A stretch of DNA of 64,000 bases from Cyclobacteriaceae bacterium (lineage in GTDB: Bacteria > Bacteroidota > Bacteroidia > Cytophagales > Cyclobacteriaceae). A program made the position numbers and the translations under genes. A model generated the notes under the pieces. It made no database searches, had not been told where the DNA came from, and saw nothing but the letters and a program-made list of their open reading frames with translations. Shown here one piece after another: positions 35,985-43,141 of the stretch (position 1 is its first letter; every line of letters starts with the position of its first letter). The stretch is taken from assembly GCA_016786585.1 (NCBI GenBank), contig JAEUUI010000008.1, forward strand, positions 1 to 64,000, written 5' to 3'.

Positions 35985-36015
35985 TTTGTGATCCCGCACG
36001 GGTTTGCTATAATTG
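35985..36015 (+). promoter_or_regulatory. bTHX (and probable trp operon) promoter
   Basis: TTTG (35985-35988), 19 nt, then TATAATTG (36008-36015), which matches TAnnTTTG at seven of eight bases. The bTHX ATG is at 36038. No comparable promoter is visible between here and the trp leader peptide, so this may also drive trpEGDCFBA. Confidence 0.5.
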
Positions 36016-36037
36016 CCTCACTATTTCTAACAAACCT

Positions 36038-36217
36038 ATGGGAAGAGGAGATAAAAAAAGCAAAAAAGGCAAGCGTACAATGGGCTCATTCGGTGTAAGC
36101 CGTAGCCGCGCAAAGATCAAAACCAGATTGAAACGCGTTGCATCGAAAAAGAAATCGACCGTAGCATCTGGCGCAGCAAAGCCAAAACGCGCTCCACGCA
36201 AAAAAGCAGAAGCTTAA
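36038..36217 (+). CDS. 30S ribosomal protein bTHX
   Basis: A 59-aa very basic protein opening MGRGDKKSKKGKRTMGSFGV, the hallmark of bTHX, which sits at the top of the 30S head and stabilises 16S rRNA. It continues with SRSRAKIKTRLK and a Lys/Ala-rich tail. The frame is open upstream to 35927, but the conserved MGRGDKK start at 36038 is the true one. Its stop is seven bases before the ATG of the trp leader peptide. Confidence 0.93.
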   Translation: MGRGDKKSKKGKRTMGSFGVSRSRAKIKTRLKRVASKKKSTVASGAAKPKRAPRKKAEA

Positions 36218-36223
36218 TTCGAA

Positions 36224-36280
36224 ATGAAGAGATTTTCTAACATAGCATGGTGGTGGCATATATCTGAAACGGATATGTGA
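36224..36280 (+). CDS. trpL: trp operon leader peptide (18 aa, Trp-Trp-Trp)
   Basis: ATG at 36224 opens an 18-codon frame reading MKRFSNIAWWWHISETDM, ending in TGA at 36278-36280. Three consecutive TGG codons occupy 36248-36256. Three adjacent Trp codons in 18 would be very unlikely by chance, and the frame lies directly ahead of a terminator and trpE. It is the sensor of a ribosome-mediated attenuator: with little charged tRNA-Trp the ribosome stalls at the TGG codons and leaves the antiterminator strand (36276-36285) free; with ample Trp it reaches the stop codon and covers that strand. Confidence 0.9.
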   Translation: MKRFSNIAWWWHISETDM

Positions 36281-36344
36281 ACAGCCTTGCTATAACTATA
36301 CATTAAGCCAGAGGCCCGCTGTTCACAGCGGGCTTCTTGTTTTT
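36276..36344 (+). promoter_or_regulatory. trp attenuator: mutually exclusive antiterminator and terminator
   Basis: TGTGAACAGC (36276-36285) is perfectly complementary to GCTGTTCACA (36318-36327), forming the antiterminator. The same downstream segment is also part of the terminator stem GCCCGCTG (36314-36321) with CAGCGGGC (36326-36333), loop TTCA, followed by TTCTTGTTTTT to 36344. The two pairings share 36318-36327 and cannot coexist. The antiterminator 5' strand overlaps the leader stop codon, as attenuation requires. trpE starts 21 bases after the T-run. Confidence 0.88.
36314..36344 (+). terminator. trp leader intrinsic terminator (also the only bTHX terminator)
   Basis: An 8-bp GC-rich perfect stem with a 4-nt loop followed by a T-rich tract. 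It is the conditional terminator of the trp attenuator and also the first terminator downstream of bTHX. Confidence 0.9.
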
Positions 36345-36365
36345 ACACCCTTTTGGAAAATTGAG

Positions 36366-37766
36366 ATGAACTATAAAATTGTAACACATTCTAAAAAGCT
36401 TCTGTCAGACACGCTGACACCGGTTAACATTTACCTGAAGCTGCGCGATGTTTTTGCCGGAAGTATTTTGCTGGAGAGTTCCGACTACCATGGTCAGGAG
36501 AACAGTTTGTCTATGATCTGCTGCGAACCCATCGCAAGCTTTAAAGTCCGGAAGAATGCCGTTGAGTTTCGTTTCCCGGACGGGAACGTTACGCAAAAGC
36601 AACTTTCTGATTCAAACTTTATTCATGAGCTTGATACGTTCAGGGCCGCTTTTAAAACCGACAATAATCCTGGTAAGAATGGCTTCTCCGGCTGCGGCCT
36701 GTTCGGATACATGGCCTACGATGCGGTTAAGTTCTTTGAAGATGTAAAAATTGATGACAGTGCTGACGACATTCCAGAAGTGTATTACGCTTTGTACCGA
36801 TATGTTATCGTAGTAAACCACTTTACAAATGAGCTTACTCTTTTTGAAAACGGTGTCGAAGGGACAAACGAGCGTGGCATCGGCAGGGTAGAGCAACTCA
36901 TCTTCAGCAACCGGTTTTCCACGTATTCGTTTCAGCCTGCCGGTGATGAAACATCTAATGTGACAGACACTGAATACGTTGAAATGGTGAAGAAGGGGAT
37001 CAGTCACTGTCAGCGGGGCGATGTTTTTCAAATCGTGCTGTCGCGGAGATTTACAAGCCGATTTAAGGGCGATGAGTTTAATGTTTATCGCGCGTTGCGT
37101 TCAATCAATCCTTCGCCTTATCTTTTTTATTTTGATTACGGAAGCTTTAAGCTTTTCGGCTCGTCACCCGAGGCGCAATTGCAGGTTCGCGGATCACAGG
37201 CGAGCATTTTTCCGATAGCCGGAACGTTCAGACGGACCGGTAACGATCAGGAGGATGCTGAATTGGCAAACAAGCTTGCAGCAGACGAGAAAGAAAATGC
37301 TGAACACATCATGCTGGTGGATCTCGCACGTAACGACATGAGCCGGCATGCCGAGCATGTAAATGTGGAGGTCTTTAAAGAGATTCAATACTACTCACAT
37401 GTAATTCACCTTGTTTCAAAAGTTACAGGTAAGCTGGCTCCCGGAACATCTGCGGTAAAAATTGCTTCTGATACCTTTCCGGCCGGAACGCTTTCGGGCG
37501 CACCTAAGCACATGGCCATGACGCTGATCAACCAGATTGAGAATACTAATCGCAGCTTTTACGGTGGAGCCATCGGGTATCTTGGATTCAACAACGATTT
37601 TAATCATGCGATTATGATCCGTACATTCCTCAGTAAAAACAATCAACTGATTTGCCAGGCAGGGGCTGGCGTAGTTTCAAAATCCAATCCCGAAAGCGAA
37701 CTGCAGGAAGTGAACAATAAACTGGGTGCCTTGCGCAAGGCGATTTTAATGGCTCAAACTATCTGA
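36366..37766 (+). CDS. trpE: anthranilate synthase component I
   Basis: A 466-aa chorismate-utilising enzyme. The N-terminal LLESSDYHG (about residues 39-47) is the tryptophan-binding feedback motif LLES. The catalytic domain includes GDVFQIVLSRRF, SPYLFYFDYG, GSSPEAQLQV, PIAGTFRRTGN, DEKENAEHIMLVDLARND, FPAGTLSGAPK, and QAGAGVVSKSNPESELQE. With TrpG it converts chorismate and glutamine to anthranilate. It is the first structural gene of the trp operon, just after the attenuator. TrpE rather than PabB is favoured by the leader, the LLES motif and the operon. Confidence 0.97.
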   Translation: MNYKIVTHSKKLLSDTLTPVNIYLKLRDVFAGSILLESSDYHGQENSLSMICCEPIASFKVRKNAVEFRFPDGNVTQKQLSDSNFIHELDTFRAAFKTDNNPGKNGFSGCGLFGYMAYDAVKFFEDVKIDDSADDIPEVYYALYRYVIVVNHFTNELTLFENGVEGTNERGIGRVEQLIFSNRFSTYSFQPAGDETSNVTDTEYVEMVKKGISHCQRGDVFQIVLSRRFTSRFKGDEFNVYRALRSINPSPYLFYFDYGSFKLFGSSPEAQLQVRGSQASIFPIAGTFRRTGNDQEDAELANKLAADEKENAEHIMLVDLARNDMSRHAEHVNVEVFKEIQYYSHVIHLVSKVTGKLAPGTSAVKIASDTFPAGTLSGAPKHMAMTLINQIENTNRSFYGGAIGYLGFNNDFNHAIMIRTFLSKNNQLICQAGAGVVSKSNPESELQEVNNKLGALRKAILMAQTI

Positions 37767-37767
37767 C

Positions 37768-38334
37768 ATGAAAATTCTAGTACTCGATAACTACGATTCA
37801 TTTACCTATAACCTGGTGCACATCATTCGCGAGCTAAAGTATGATTATGAAGTGCATCGGAACGACAAGATCACACTGGAAGAAGTGAAGCGCTTCGACA
37901 AAATATTGCTTTCACCCGGGCCGGGAATTCCGGATGAGGCGGGTATCATGAAAGATCTGATCAAAACGTATGGTCCTTCGAAGAGCATTCTCGGAGTTTG
38001 TCTGGGGCATCAGGGCATCGGTGAGGTTTACGGAGCATCGTTGTTTAACATCCCAAAAGTGCTTCACGGTGTAACATCTGTGGCGCACGTTACCGATCCG
38101 CAGGAGAAGCTGTTTAAAAGCATCCCTTCGGATTTCCAGGTCACACACTATCACTCGTGGGCAATTAAACCGGATAGCATTAAGTCACCCCTGAAGATTA
38201 CTGCCACTAACCAGGAAGGGTTGGTTATGGCTGTGCGCCATGAACAATACGATGTATGCGGGGTGCAATTTCATCCGGAATCGATCATGACGCCCGAGGG
38301 GCCGAAAATTATTGAGAATTGGCTTAAGGGTTAA
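37768..38334 (+). CDS. trpG: anthranilate synthase glutamine amidotransferase component
   Basis: A 188-aa class I amidotransferase. LDNYDSFTYNL opens the protein, ILLSPGPGIPDEAG follows, the nucleophile Cys78 is in GVCLGHQGIGEVYG, HYHSWAI is the interface loop, and GVQFHPESIMTPEG gives the catalytic His. It supplies ammonia to TrpE. One base separates it from the trpE stop. It is not fused to TrpE or TrpD. It could also serve PabB, as amphibolic TrpG proteins do elsewhere. Confidence 0.95.
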   Translation: MKILVLDNYDSFTYNLVHIIRELKYDYEVHRNDKITLEEVKRFDKILLSPGPGIPDEAGIMKDLIKTYGPSKSILGVCLGHQGIGEVYGASLFNIPKVLHGVTSVAHVTDPQEKLFKSIPSDFQVTHYHSWAIKPDSIKSPLKITATNQEGLVMAVRHEQYDVCGVQFHPESIMTPEGPKIIENWLKG

Positions 38335-38380: not shown

Positions 38381-39367
38381 ATGAGGACAGTTTTAAATGA
38401 GTTGATCGATCATCAGTCGCTCTCCAAAGAAGAAGCACGACAGGTTTTGATTGAGCTTACATCGGGTAAGTACAACCCGAGTCAGATGGCGTCATTCATC
38501 ACCGTGTATATGATGCGAAATATTACGGTGGATGAGTTGCAGGGCTTTCGCGATGCCATGCTGGAACTTTGTATTCCGGCTCGGTTCGATCAGCCGGTGA
38601 TGGACGTCTGCGGAACAGGTGGTGATGGAAAGAACACGTTCAACATTTCAACCTTGTCGTCTTTTGTGGTAGCCGCAGCTGGTCAGCCGGTAGCCAAGCA
38701 TGGAAACTATGGTGTTTCTTCTGCGTGCGGATCATCTAATGTACTTGAGTATTTTGGGTACACATTTACCAATAACATCGATGAGTTGAAGCGGTCGCTC
38801 GACCGGGCGAATATCTGCTTTATGCATGCTCCGCTTTTCCATCCTGCGTTGAAGAATGTAGCTCCGATCCGCAAAGAACTTGGCGTGAAAACATTTTTCA
38901 ACATGCTCGGCCCCATGGTAAACCCTGCGTTTCCGAAGCGACAATTGGTAGGGGTTTTCAGCCTTGAACTTGCGCGGAAGTATGGCTACTTGTATCAGCA
39001 CACCGATAAGCAGTTCGTGGTGTTGCATTCGCTGGATGGCTACGATGAGATTTCGCTTACCGGTGCCTTCAAATACTTTTATAATAATGGCGAACAACTT
39101 GCAGATGCTGCCGATCTCGGTTTGCCGACTGTAACCTATGAACAAATCGGTGGTGGCGATTCGGTAGCTGACTCGGCAAAGATATTTATGGACGTGCTGG
39201 AAGGAAAAGGTACGCCTGCACAGAACGCTGCCGTAATCGCCAATGCCGGCATGGCTTTGTATTGTGCCGATCAGCAGACTGGATTGTTAAATTCGGTAGC
39301 CAAAGCGAAAGAAGCGTTGGAGTCGGGTAAGGCACTTGAGTCATTTAAAAAACTGATCAACCGCTGA
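38381..39367 (+). CDS. trpD: anthranilate phosphoribosyltransferase
   Basis: A 328-aa enzyme of normal length. The PRPP-binding CGTGGDGKNTFNIST (about residues 78-92), KHGNYGVSSACGSSNVLEYF, and LGPMVNPAFPKRQLVGVF are diagnostic. It attaches phosphoribose to anthranilate. The 46-bp gap to trpG contains two copies of GTTCAAGGTT and no terminator. The stop overlaps trpC by one base. Confidence 0.97.
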   Translation: MRTVLNELIDHQSLSKEEARQVLIELTSGKYNPSQMASFITVYMMRNITVDELQGFRDAMLELCIPARFDQPVMDVCGTGGDGKNTFNISTLSSFVVAAAGQPVAKHGNYGVSSACGSSNVLEYFGYTFTNNIDELKRSLDRANICFMHAPLFHPALKNVAPIRKELGVKTFFNMLGPMVNPAFPKRQLVGVFSLELARKYGYLYQHTDKQFVVLHSLDGYDEISLTGAFKYFYNNGEQLADAADLGLPTVTYEQIGGGDSVADSAKIFMDVLEGKGTPAQNAAVIANAGMALYCADQQTGLLNSVAKAKEALESGKALESFKKLINR

Positions 39368-40158
39368 TGAATATTCTCGATACGATTGTTGCACACAAGC
39401 AAAAGGAAGTAGCTGACAACAAGCAGATTGTTTCTGTGCAGTCGTTGGAGCAACGCGACTTGTTTCAACGGCAGCCGGTTTCGATCAAAGCTGCTTTGAT
39501 GCATCCGGGCTCCAGCGGAATTATTGCCGAGTTTAAGCGCAAGTCACCTTCGAAAGGTATAATCAACGATCAGGTTGCGTGCGATAAAACCACACTTGCG
39601 TACGCGCAGGCCGGTGCTTCGGCTCTGTCGGTGCTAACGGATCATAACTTTTTTGGAGGTAGCGTAGATGATTTTCTGTCGGCAAGACGCGTAAACAATT
39701 GTCCGATGCTTCGGAAGGATTTTGTGATTGATGAATATCAGATCATCGAGGCAAAGTCGATCGGTGCGGATGTCATCCTGCTGATCGCAGCCATCCTTGA
39801 TCCGGGTACAATTGCAAAGTTTGTTACGCTTGCGCATGGACTGGGTATGGAGGTGTTGCTGGAAGTTCATGATGAAAAAGAACTGCTGGATAATCTTGCA
39901 AGCGGTACGGACTTAATTGGAGTTAATAACCGGAATCTGAAAACTTTTGACGTGAGTATTGAAACGTCACGAAGATTGTCAGCGCTGATCCCGGATGGAA
40001 TTATTAAAGTTTCCGAGAGTGGTATTGAGCAAATCGAAACGATTCGCGAATTGCGCGCATCAGGCTTCCGTGGGTTTCTGATGGGCCAGCGATTTATGGA
40101 ACAGACCGATCCGGGTTTGGCGTGTTTGACCTTCATTCAAAATCTTAAAAAGGGCTGA
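39367..40158 (+). CDS. trpC: indole-3-glycerol-phosphate synthase
   Basis: A 263-aa TIM barrel. Conserved stretches are GIIAEFKRKSPSKGIIND (catalytic Glu-Lys loop), ALSVLTDHNFFGGS, LRKDFVIDEYQI, GVNNRNLKTFDV and SESGIEQIETI, which line the active site. It closes the indole ring from CdRP. It is monofunctional, with TrpF encoded separately by the next gene, whose start overlaps the trpC stop by one base. Confidence 0.97.
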   Translation: MNILDTIVAHKQKEVADNKQIVSVQSLEQRDLFQRQPVSIKAALMHPGSSGIIAEFKRKSPSKGIINDQVACDKTTLAYAQAGASALSVLTDHNFFGGSVDDFLSARRVNNCPMLRKDFVIDEYQIIEAKSIGADVILLIAAILDPGTIAKFVTLAHGLGMEVLLEVHDEKELLDNLASGTDLIGVNNRNLKTFDVSIETSRRLSALIPDGIIKVSESGIEQIETIRELRASGFRGFLMGQRFMEQTDPGLACLTFIQNLKKG

Positions 40159-40778
40159 TGAATGTAAAGCTGAAAATATGTGGTATGCGGGATGCAGCGA
40201 ATATTGCTTCGGTTGCAGTATTGCAGCCCGACTACATGGGCTTTATTTTCTACGATAAGTCGCCCCGGTACGTGACTGAAGATTTTACACTTCCGCGGAT
40301 TGATTCGGGCATCAGTAAGGTGGGTGTTTTTGTAAACGATGAGACAGAGTTGATTCTCCGCAAGGTTGAGCAGTACAAGCTTGATTTTGTTCAGTTGCAT
40401 GGAAATGAATCGGTGGAGCAATGTGCTGAATTGTCGGAAAGGGTTGATGTCATTAAAGCGTTCGCGATTGACGAGACATTTGATTTCGATGCCCTGAAGC
40501 CTTTTGAAAATCACGTGACGTATTTTTTGTTTGATACAAAAGGCAGGTATTTTGGTGGCAACGCAAAAACGTTTGACTGGAATCTCTTGGAGAAGTATAA
40601 TCAACAGGTTCCGTTTTTTCTTAGCGGAGGTATAACCCCGGAGAATGTTTCAGATGTTGATGGTTTAAGGAATTTGAATATTCGGGCAATAGATGTTAAC
40701 AGTGGAGTAGAAGATGCTCCCGGAATTAAAAACAGTACCAAAATCAAAACGATAAAAAGCGTGCTACACGCATTATAA
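40158..40778 (+). CDS. trpF: phosphoribosylanthranilate isomerase
   Basis: A 206-aa TIM barrel. [13 protein letters not shown] carries the catalytic Cys; [44 protein letters not shown], and [16 protein letters not shown] (catalytic Asp and phosphate loop) are all present. It isomerises PRA to CdRP. Tightly spaced in the operon (2 bp to trpB). Confidence 0.97.
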
Positions 40779-40780
40779 AT

Positions 40781-41962
40781 ATGAAGTATACAGTTAATGA
40801 AAAGGGCTTTTACGGAAAGTTTGGCGGAGCCTACATTCCGGAAATGCTCTATCCGAATGTGGAAGAGCTGAGACAGAATTACACATCAATTATTAACGAG
40901 CCGTCTTTCCAGACTGAGTTCGCGAAGCTGTTGAAAGATTATGTCGGCCGGCCAACACCGTTGTATTTTGCGCAACGCCTTTCAGAAGCCTACAAAGCAA
41001 AAATTTATCTCAAGCGTGAAGATTTGTGTCACACGGGTGCACACAAAATCAATAATACCATCGGGCAGATTTTGCTGGCGAGACGCATGGGTAAGAAAAA
41101 GATCATTGCCGAAACCGGGGCGGGGCAGCATGGTGTGGCGACAGCAACTGTATGTGCACTAATGGGTATGGACTGCACGGTTTATATGGGCCAGCTGGAT
41201 ATGGACCGCCAGCGCCCGAACGTTGAACGAATGCGGATTCTCGGGGCACAGGTTGTTCCGGCACGCAGCGGCAACATGACGCTTAAAGACGCTACCAACG
41301 AAGCGATGCGTCATTGGATTAACAATCCTTCGGATACGCACTACATCATCGGTTCGGTGGTTGGGCCTCATCCGTACCCGGATATGGTCACCCGGTTTCA
41401 ATCCGTAATCAGTGAAGAAATCAAAGCACAGCTGCAGGAAGCGGAAGGCAATCCGTTTCCGGATTACGTAGTGGCGTGTGTTGGCGGTGGCAGCAACGCA
41501 GCGGGAGCATATTATCATTTTCTGGAAGATGAGCATGTAAACCTGGTTGGCGTTGAGGCAGCGGGCAAAGGTGTGGATTCAGGGGAATCGGCCGCCACTA
41601 CCGCGCTTGGAAAAACGGGTGTGCTTCACGGCAGTAAAACACTTCTCATGCAAACCGAAGATGGCCAGGTGATCGAACCTTATTCGATTTCTGCCGGACT
41701 GGATTATCCCGGCATCGGGCCGTTGCATGCACATTTGTTCGACACGCAACGTGTTCAGTTTGTAAGCGCCACGGATGATGATGCCATGCAGGCAGGAATT
41801 GAGTTGAGTCGCACGGAAGGAATCATTCCGGCCATCGAATCCGCACATGCGGTGGCAGCATTGAAGCAGCTTGCCGTTGATCCGGATGATGTGGTGGTGA
41901 TCAACCTTTCGGGAAGAGGCGATAAGGATCTCGAAACCTATATCCGCTGGGGTAAATACTAA
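40781..41962 (+). CDS. trpB: tryptophan synthase beta chain
   Basis: A 393-aa PLP enzyme of the TrpB1 type. [15 protein letters not shown] opens the protein; the PLP Lys89 is in [22 protein letters not shown] and the phosphate-binding [13 protein letters not shown] loop are intact. It condenses indole and serine to tryptophan in the alpha2-beta2 complex with TrpA. Confidence 0.98.
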
Positions 41963-41982
41963 CGATTGACTATTTGATAATT

Positions 41983-42759
41983 ATGAGCAGACTCAAACAA
42001 CTGTTTCAGGATAAAAAGAACAACATACTGTCGGTGTTTTATACTGCAGGATTTCCGAAGTTGAACGACACGGTGGAAATCGCACGCCATCTTCAATCGG
42101 GCGGTGCCGACATCATCGAGATTGGAATTCCGTTTTCTGATCCTGTCGCTGATGGCCCGACCATCCAGGCAAGCAATAAGGTTGCGCTTGATAATGGAAT
42201 GACCGTAAAATTGTTGCTTGAGCAGGTAAAGGAAATCCGCAAGGATGTGAATATCCCGATCGTGCTGATGGGCTACCTTAATCCCGTACTGCAATATGGC
42301 TTCGAAAAGTTTTGTAAGGAGGCTGCTGCCAATGGGGTTGATGGATTGATCCTGCCGGACATGCCGCTGGATGAATTTAACGAACACAAAGACCTTACCT
42401 CGTCTCTTGGGTTGGATGTAATCTTCCTGGTATCACCTACAACTTCAGCCGAGCGTATCAACATGATTGATGGATTGTCGTCAGGGTTTGTGTACGCAGT
42501 TTCTTCTTCAAGTACTACGGGCGCAAAGAAGGGTTTTACAGCGGATCAGGAGCAATACTTCCAGAAATTAAAATCAGCGAACCTAAAAAATCCGTTCCTG
42601 ATCGGTTTCGGAATCTCAGATCACGCAACGTTCAGTAAAGCAAGTGAATATGGATCGGGAGCGATTGTGGGAAGTGCATTTATAAATCTTTTGCAGGAAT
42701 CAAGTAACTTCGGGAAGGATATTTCACAGTTTGTGGAAAGTCTAAAATCTAAATCGTAA
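41983..42759 (+). CDS. trpA: tryptophan synthase alpha chain
   Basis: A 258-aa TIM barrel. GGADIIEIGIPFSDPVADGP holds the catalytic Glu and Asp, and FVYAVSSSSTTGAKKGF is the loop 6 / phosphate region. The frame opens at TTG 41974, but ATG 41983 is preferred and gives normal length. The last five codons (LKSKS) and stop lie inside a TCTAAAATC/AAATCGTAAATC repeat that continues into the gap, so the C-terminus may have been reshaped by that repeat. Last gene of the trp operon. Confidence 0.96.
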   Translation: MSRLKQLFQDKKNNILSVFYTAGFPKLNDTVEIARHLQSGGADIIEIGIPFSDPVADGPTIQASNKVALDNGMTVKLLLEQVKEIRKDVNIPIVLMGYLNPVLQYGFEKFCKEAAANGVDGLILPDMPLDEFNEHKDLTSSLGLDVIFLVSPTTSAERINMIDGLSSGFVYAVSSSSTTGAKKGFTADQEQYFQKLKSANLKNPFLIGFGISDHATFSKASEYGSGAIVGSAFINLLQESSNFGKDISQFVESLKSKS

Positions 42760-42790: not shown

Positions 42791-43141
42791 ATGTACATCG
42801 TTTACGGAATCAAGAACTGCAACACAGTAAAAAATGCGCTCGACTGGCTTAAGAAAAACAAGATTGAGTTCGAGTTTCACGATTATAAAGCGAAAGGCAT
42901 TGATGCGGCTAAGCTAAAAAACTGGAGCGGTCAGGTAGGGTGGGAGAAACTCGTCAATAAAAAAGGAACCACGTGGCGTCAGTTGGATGAGAAAGTGCAA
43001 AGCAAAGTAACCTCCGAAAAAGCTGCCATCGAACTCATGCAGCAAAAGACCAGCGTGATCAAGCGCCCGCTGATCGAATCAAAGAACAAAGTGGTTACGC
43101 TGGGTTTTGATGAAGCTGAATTTAAAGCTGCTTACAAGTAA
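42791..43141 (+). CDS. ArsC/Spx-family thioredoxin-fold protein (YffB-like)
   Basis: A 116-aa protein. MYIVYGIKNCNTVKNALDWL has the CxxT (CNTV) form with one N-terminal cysteine, and FEFHDYKAKGI follows. KTSVIKRPLIESKNK is the conserved R-P cis-proline segment of the ArsC/Spx family. Arsenate reductase proper, Spx regulators and YffB-like proteins share this fold; no ars genes lie nearby, so an arsenate role is not assumed. Cytoplasmic. Confidence 0.88.
   Translation: MYIVYGIKNCNTVKNALDWLKKNKIEFEFHDYKAKGIDAAKLKNWSGQVGWEKLVNKKGTTWRQLDEKVQSKVTSEKAAIELMQQKTSVIKRPLIESKNKVVTLGFDEAEFKAAYK

Follow-up and report, generated by a model that had tools for sequence, protein, structure and literature searches.

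Does the short open reading frame with three consecutive Trp codons that lies ahead of trpE in this Cyclobacteriaceae genome belong to a ribosome-mediated attenuator, and from which promoter would such an attenuator be transcribed? The window considered here is a stretch of 64,000 nucleotides (contig JAEUUI010000008.1, positions 1 to 64,000), whose relevant features are collected in Table 1. Comparison of this locus with those of its relatives indicates that a ribosome-mediated trp attenuator very probably occupies the 3' region of the unit transcribed with a ribosomal-protein gene.

The initial annotation of this DNA described an 18-codon ORF with three tandem TGG codons, a strand overlapping its stop codon with a perfect complement 32 bases further on, and a GC-rich terminator that uses the same segment. 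These elements hold base for base. TGTGAACAGC and GCTGTTCACA are perfect complements 32 bases apart, and the terminator stem (36310-36337) contains 12 pairs, 8 of them G-C, and is followed by TGTTTTTA. The predicted fold adds a 1:2 hairpin that the annotation had lacked, and the anatomy thus has the parts of a classical attenuator. The leader and the three alternative hairpins are contained within 36224-36347, ahead of trpEGDCFBA, with 142 bases separating the leader ATG from the trpE start. A short ORF with tandem Trp codons stands ahead of trp genes in the window, and folding and 2:3 complementarity indicate, here and in other leaders, a mutually exclusive terminator and antiterminator that share one strand. 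The leader region folds at -48.4 versus -27.9 kcal/mol (z -5.9), a stability reached by 0 of 200 dinucleotide shuffles. In the 4.19-Mb genome, one strand carries the string TGGTGGTGG 40 times and the other 32 times; any 200 bases of a given strand would contain about 0.002 copies, a figure that does not yet require a short in-frame ORF and an antiterminator ahead of trpE. Because the leader is conserved in relatives, a chance origin is very unlikely. Gene callers would usually miss an ORF as short as this leader. At the other end of the operon, an ArsC/Spx-family gene (42791-43141) directly follows trpA on the same strand.

Table 1. Features of the trp leader region and its surroundings in the window
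Feature	Coordinates	Strand	Basis and remarks
Predicted Bacteroidota-type promoter TTTG-N19-TATAATTG ahead of THX	35985-36015	+	Consensus match, 9/10 fixed bases
30S ribosomal protein THX gene, 59 aa	36038-36217	+	NCBIfam TIGR04560 ribo_THX, E 7.4e-10, over cut-off
trp leader peptide ORF	36224-36280	+	18 codons, ATG 36224, TGA stop 36278-36280, peptide MKRFSNIAWWWHISETDM
1:2 hairpin	36242-36293; inner stem 36257-36279	+	Predicted fold; covariation on A1
TGG TGG TGG, proposed stall site	36248-36256	+	Sequence reading; alignment A1
Antiterminator strand 2, TGTGAACAGC	36276-36285	+	Overlaps leader stop codon
3:4 intrinsic terminator with T-rich tail	36310-36345	+	Terminator call, fold, covariation
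Antiterminator strand 3, GCTGTTCACA	36318-36327	+	Within terminator 5' arm and loop
trpE, anthranilate synthase component I	36366-37766	+	TIGR00564 E 5.9e-121, 404.6 bits, below 517.7 cut-off; first controlled gene
trpG	37768-38334	+	TIGR00566 over cut-off
trpD	38381-39367	+	TIGR01245 over cut-off
trpC	39367-40158	+	NF001377 over cut-off
trpF	40158-40778	+	NF002298 E 2.3e-50, below its cut-off
trpB	40781-41962	+	TIGR00263 over cut-off
trpA	41974-42759	+	TIGR00262 over cut-off

Conservation of the tandem Trp codons was one of the checks that the initial annotation had named, and it is borne out. The set of 110 trpE loci consists of 80 named genome contigs and 30 loci of the window's family, its own locus included; the more distant TrpE-like matches L002 and L003 are excluded from all trpE counts, and L007 and L097 represent the same contig. 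The nearest named relative, L004, shares 87% TrpE identity and is labelled Cyclobacteriaceae. Of the 110 loci, 108 have a WW(W) leader ahead of trpE: 103 of 109 found by script, four displaced, and L038, which was omitted by the leader script and by everything built on it and was read by eye. Most leaders carry three Trp codons and a few carry two (e.g. L032, L073, L098, and L112). In the displaced cases (L018, L043, L047, and L059) a WWW leader and terminator lie 466-520 bases upstream of trpE, with another ORF between that, in these Flavobacteria-like loci, we take to have the look of a GIY-YIG nuclease. The two exceptions are L057, with a degenerate leader containing one Trp codon, and L064, whose contig begins inside the leader. 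Among 55 further genomes of the family (one per genus, chosen among the matches listed; at least three duplicate named loci), 50 have a leader by an ATG rule. Inspection by eye revealed a leader with a GTG start in L153 and L197, W-H-W in L144, and no leader in L180 or L194. Some loci carry more than one such ORF. L014 has tandem WW(W) leaders ahead of trpE (2602-2723 and 2824-2943), both of which match the covariance model R1 described below, suggesting double attenuators, and two WW ORFs each precede trpE in L191 and L178.

The helices are conserved in different ways. On alignment A1, which contains 20 window-type leaders, helices 1:2 and 3:4 together form standard pairs in 93.2% of cells, compared with 33-44% for slid versions, and 10 pairs and 33 cells are changed on both sides, versus 5.6 and 11.6 after shuffling. 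Of the five measures, one is unexceptional: the count of further pair types (24 versus 21.4, reached by 42 of 500 shuffles). Helix 2:3 is 98.5% paired on A1 with zero changes on both sides, a result that is neutral by itself. In alignment A2 of the second type (14 rows, L008 left out), one 2:3 pair changes from G-C to A-U on both sides in four rows. All four come from the window's genus or from a copy of such a contig, so this double change is perhaps a single event. Compensatory changes are thus seen in 1:2 and 3:4, which covary on A1; the 2:3 helix shows leader-specific complementarity, with no double change on that alignment.

That complementarity persists although the strands themselves differ greatly, from TGTGAACAGC with GCTGTTCACA and GATCGG with CCGATC to GTCGTGA with TCACGAC in Flavobacteriaceae and GGGAAA with TTTCCC in Algoriphagus. 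Shuffle tests on single leaders, run without nine leaders that have no detected terminator, give p<=0.05 for 2:3 in 57 of 94. Because such tests are weak for short 2:3 helices, a swap test was added. With 8 duplicate leaders dropped, the 141 leaders score 18.73 with their own 2:3 partners versus 14.21 (sd 0.24, max 15.0) in 2000 permutations of strand 3, and 91 of the 141 individually beat 95% of swaps with dissimilar partners. A strong 2:3 helix was not seen in several leaders, L028 and L112 for example. On the trpE tree, drawn for the antiterminator types A and B with L097 left out, the two types found among THX-linked loci (defined below) need six changes, at least three of which are forced by well-supported branches. 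One leader, L005 (2823-2955), combines a B-type antiterminator (GATCGG with CCGATC) with an A-like TGAACGGC at the stop and is possibly an intermediate between the two types.

Folding predictions that include the position of the ribosome agree with the proposed switch. For RNA ending with strand 3, three states were folded: ribosome stalled at the second Trp codon, ribosome at the stop, and no ribosome. On average, 67, 14, and 38% of the strand-3 stretch, respectively, is then paired to RNA located 5' of the terminator. This pairing is higher by more than 0.1 in the stalled than in the stop state in 149 of 149 leaders. When the upstream part is shuffled, the stalled figure falls to 40%, and the observed value is higher in 148 of the 149, with p<=0.05 in just 60 at 30 shuffles each. 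L015, L022, L026, and L033, which have no detected terminator, lie outside this folding, its shuffle control, and the swap test. In the full transcript of the window, the terminator is the more stable structure at equilibrium (-25.7 kcal/mol) even when the second Trp codon carries a stalled ribosome, so antitermination here would have to be kinetic. The textbook trp attenuation switch is kinetic as well. The geometry of ribosome-mediated attenuation that was originally proposed is therefore supported by WW(W) conservation, by 1:2 and 3:4 covariation, and by leader-specific 2:3 complementarity.

Two further features, the THX gene immediately upstream and the lack of a promoter match at the leader, had not been recorded in the initial annotation and bear on how the attenuator would be transcribed. 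In the window, 6 nt separate the THX stop codon from the leader ATG. A scan of 36000-36500 found no sigma-70-type promoter. In a Bacteroidota-type promoter, we assume a TTTG element about 19 nt upstream of the -7 box. The accessible text of PMC9723704 gives this box as TAnnTTTG. For both sets of loci, a promoter was scored as a consensus match to TTTG-N18-20-TAnnTTTG-like sequence with at least 9 of 10 fixed bases. THX-linked loci are the 36 of 110 in which the gap from the THX stop to the leader ATG is 0-25 nt, in any reading frame (median 6, with the script's choice of start); this gap is the sole non-coding space between the two. Of these 36, 34 have a promoter match upstream of THX (0.6 expected), each one base off TAnnTTTG, and L103 and L104 have none at the score used. 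Within 160 nt before the Trp codons, a match occurs in 0 of the 36 THX-linked loci (0.0 expected) versus 64 of 67 other loci (2.6 expected). The 50 sampled family genomes with a leader give a looser picture: 38 have a promoter match near the leader, comprising 36 of the 45 without THX within 700 nt upstream and 2 of the 5 with it, and 9 of the 12 without a match have no THX in the 700 nt upstream.

We conclude from this placement that the promoter ahead of THX probably drives the whole trp operon in the window. With promoter matches ahead of THX and none at the leader, the trp attenuator probably also serves to terminate THX. Ribosomes finishing THX may also feed the trp leader, presumably by reinitiation. 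Translation initiation in Bacteroidota relies on non-Shine-Dalgarno signals, according to the available part of PMC9723704, and this makes the putative delivery of ribosomes from THX to the leader attractive. In the openly accessible literature, we found no report of a link between THX and trp. Further upstream, the window carries a small SRP RNA (RF04183, 35558-35659, minus strand), the only Rfam match at gathering score in the whole window; the same RNA lies upstream on the minus strand in L004 and L011.

The attenuator could be real and THX a mere neighbor, with an own leader promoter missed by the scan and no passage of ribosomes from THX to the leader. L181 and L195 lend this reading some credit, as THX lies 39-50 nt ahead of the leader in these loci and yet a promoter match is found near the leader, and the promoter scans consist of consensus matches only. 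We nevertheless judge it unlikely, given how sharply THX-linked and other loci differ in matches before the Trp codons and how little non-coding space is left between THX and the leader. A plain THX terminator with an incidental WWW ORF is the least probable of the readings considered here. The hairpin alone would make a good intrinsic terminator right after THX, but the Trp codons and the 2:3 complementarity are kept also where no THX lies directly ahead.

Two other possibilities concern the peptide. In TnaC, the nascent peptide senses free tryptophan in the ribosome tunnel, and the sequence WWWH could act likewise, as its conservation as AWWWH in 30 of 36 THX-linked leaders might suggest. 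The residue after WWW varies between groups, however: H prevails in Cytophagales leaders, and N, S, or I in those of Flavobacteriaceae. Moreover, the codons that follow WWW belong to a covarying RNA stem, and base pairing in the RNA can account for the conserved WWWH; arrest by the nascent peptide is thus highly improbable. Hardly better is the chance of a trans-acting role, in addition to attenuation, for the peptide once released or for the terminated leader RNA, as reported in the accessible portion of PMC7298713 for peTrpL of Sinorhizobium meliloti, since outside WWW the peptide shows little conservation among the loci. We therefore retain ribosome-mediated attenuation within a THX-headed unit.

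How THX and trp came together can be approached from the trpE tree, in which all 36 THX-linked loci fall on one side of a branch with 100/100 support, separated from 21 chosen other loci (midpoint root). THX is matched in 118 of the 196 genomes of the window's family, and the distance from THX to trpE was taken in 95 of these 118, among the trpE matches listed. Again among the matches listed, 38 of 94 have the THX start no more than 450 nt upstream of trpE, and 45 have it no more than 800 nt upstream. Twelve of the 38 close pairs lie outside the 36 THX-linked loci, and because nine of these belong to genera other than the THX-linked ones, the THX-trp neighborhood is wider than the clade. We read this as THX and trp being old neighbors in the family, with the intervening promoter lost and THX brought against the leader in the ancestor of the clade. 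Insertion of THX between a promoter and the leader was also considered and is no longer the preferred history, because THX occurs upstream of trpE, at a somewhat greater distance, in family genomes outside the clade.

According to the mechanism that we propose, RNA polymerase would start ahead of THX, as the conserved promoter match suggests, and would transcribe first THX and next the leader. The WWW leader would be translated by a ribosome that may have come straight from the THX stop codon 6 nt upstream. When charged tRNA-Trp is plentiful, this ribosome would reach the stop codon and mask strand 2, the 3:4 terminator would form, and the transcript would end as a THX mRNA. When charged tRNA-Trp is scarce, it would stall on the Trp codons, strands 2 and 3 would pair before strand 4 is made, and polymerase would read on into trpEGDCFBA. 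With respect to origin, we lean toward capture of the trp operon by a ribosomal-protein unit in one Cyclobacteriaceae-like clade, in which the leader would have lost its own promoter, each ribosome leaving THX would start a tryptophan test a few bases downstream, and the antiterminator would have switched repeatedly between two unrelated solutions. If this is true, tryptophan synthesis would scale with THX promoter activity, a reflection of growth, multiplied by the charging level of tRNA-Trp, and THX mRNAs would normally finish at the trp terminator. Among related bacteria, the attenuator seems to be transcribed in some from a promoter of its own and in others from behind a ribosomal-protein gene, a natural experiment, and the repeated antiterminator change allows one to ask how a switch is rewritten without being lost.

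The attenuator type itself is already known in Bacteroidota, and its underlying mechanism is textbook; as far as we searched the openly accessible literature, the new parts are its placement behind THX and the repeated exchange of antiterminator sequences. The Bacteroid-trp motif (RF01692, Bacteroidete tryptophan peptide leader RNA) is listed in the accessible text of Weinberg 2010 (PMC2864571). The available part of a 2019 paper on Flavobacterium psychrophilum (PMC6414381) describes it as resembling the E. coli trp leader in structure and as conserved upstream of trp, and that of PMC9723704 mentions clues to leader-peptide attenuation ahead of amino-acid operons. The accessible portions of PMC4833913 and PMC7366714 contain nothing specific on Bacteroidota trp leaders. 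The suggestion that ribosome-mediated attenuation operates in this phylum, offered originally as an inference, is therefore supported as to mechanism but not new, such leaders being catalogued (RF01692) and mentioned in print (PMC6414381).

Among the loci submitted, RF01692 matches at the corresponding position in 10 of 12 from Flavobacteriaceae and in 0 of 7 from Cytophagales. In a phylum sample it matches 41 of 395 genomes, 37 of them over the cut-off; neither the family nor the order of the window is represented among the 41, and nine genomes of the family appear in the list with no match. In the window it is absent at gathering score (49 bits), and within 36150-36400 it is absent at E<=10. 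The best Rfam match of the leader region is RF00513 Trp_leader (33.4 bits, E 2.3e-5 on 251 bases, whole model; below gathering 41), followed by RF00506 Thr_leader (28.4 bits versus a cut-off of 55), and because a Thr leader also matches weakly, the resemblance to RF00513 is partly generic. The covariance model R1, built from the 20 window-type leaders, matches each of 30 chosen sources, among them the RF01692 loci L062, L033, L020, L017, L198, and L200. At E<=0.001 it matches 78 of the 395 phylum genomes and overlaps the RF01692 place in 26 of the 41 (coordinates compared by hand); some of the weak matches in the phylum may be mere terminators. A minus-strand R1 match at 36300-36387 was set aside as the near-palindromic terminator read backwards. 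As R1 matches RF01692 loci and the window scores below Rfam cut-offs, the window leader looks like a diverged relative of Bacteroid-trp outside the Rfam threshold. This kind would thereby extend, as far as tested, to Cytophagales loci that score below those cut-offs. Elsewhere in the same genome (L228, contig C7, 291986-292528, minus strand, outside the window), a His-rich leader ORF, MRTTANIHLHHHHVLHTMRGRFMF, lies upstream of hisG and is followed by a GC-rich inverted repeat and a T-run; these features count for attenuation, and the element is likely a His attenuator.

With RF01692 the element in the window shares its position ahead of trpE, a WWW leader, a terminator, and an antiterminator overlapping the leader end, but it has other antiterminator letters, THX directly ahead, and no promoter match of its own. 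The Flavobacterium psychrophilum trp leader differs in belonging to Flavobacteriaceae, and the accessible parts of PMC6414381 and PMC9723704 mention no THX arrangement. Like the E. coli trp attenuator (RF00513), the window has Trp codons in strand 1, alternative 1:2, 2:3, and 3:4 pairings, and a GC-rich terminator; it differs in having three Trp codons and a ribosomal-protein gene ahead. The E. coli pheM attenuator of pheST differs in its Phe codons, its tRNA synthetase operon, and a ribosomal protein other than THX, but it too is a leader-peptide attenuator adjoining a ribosomal-protein gene, rplT, as the available text of PMC5371410 indicates.
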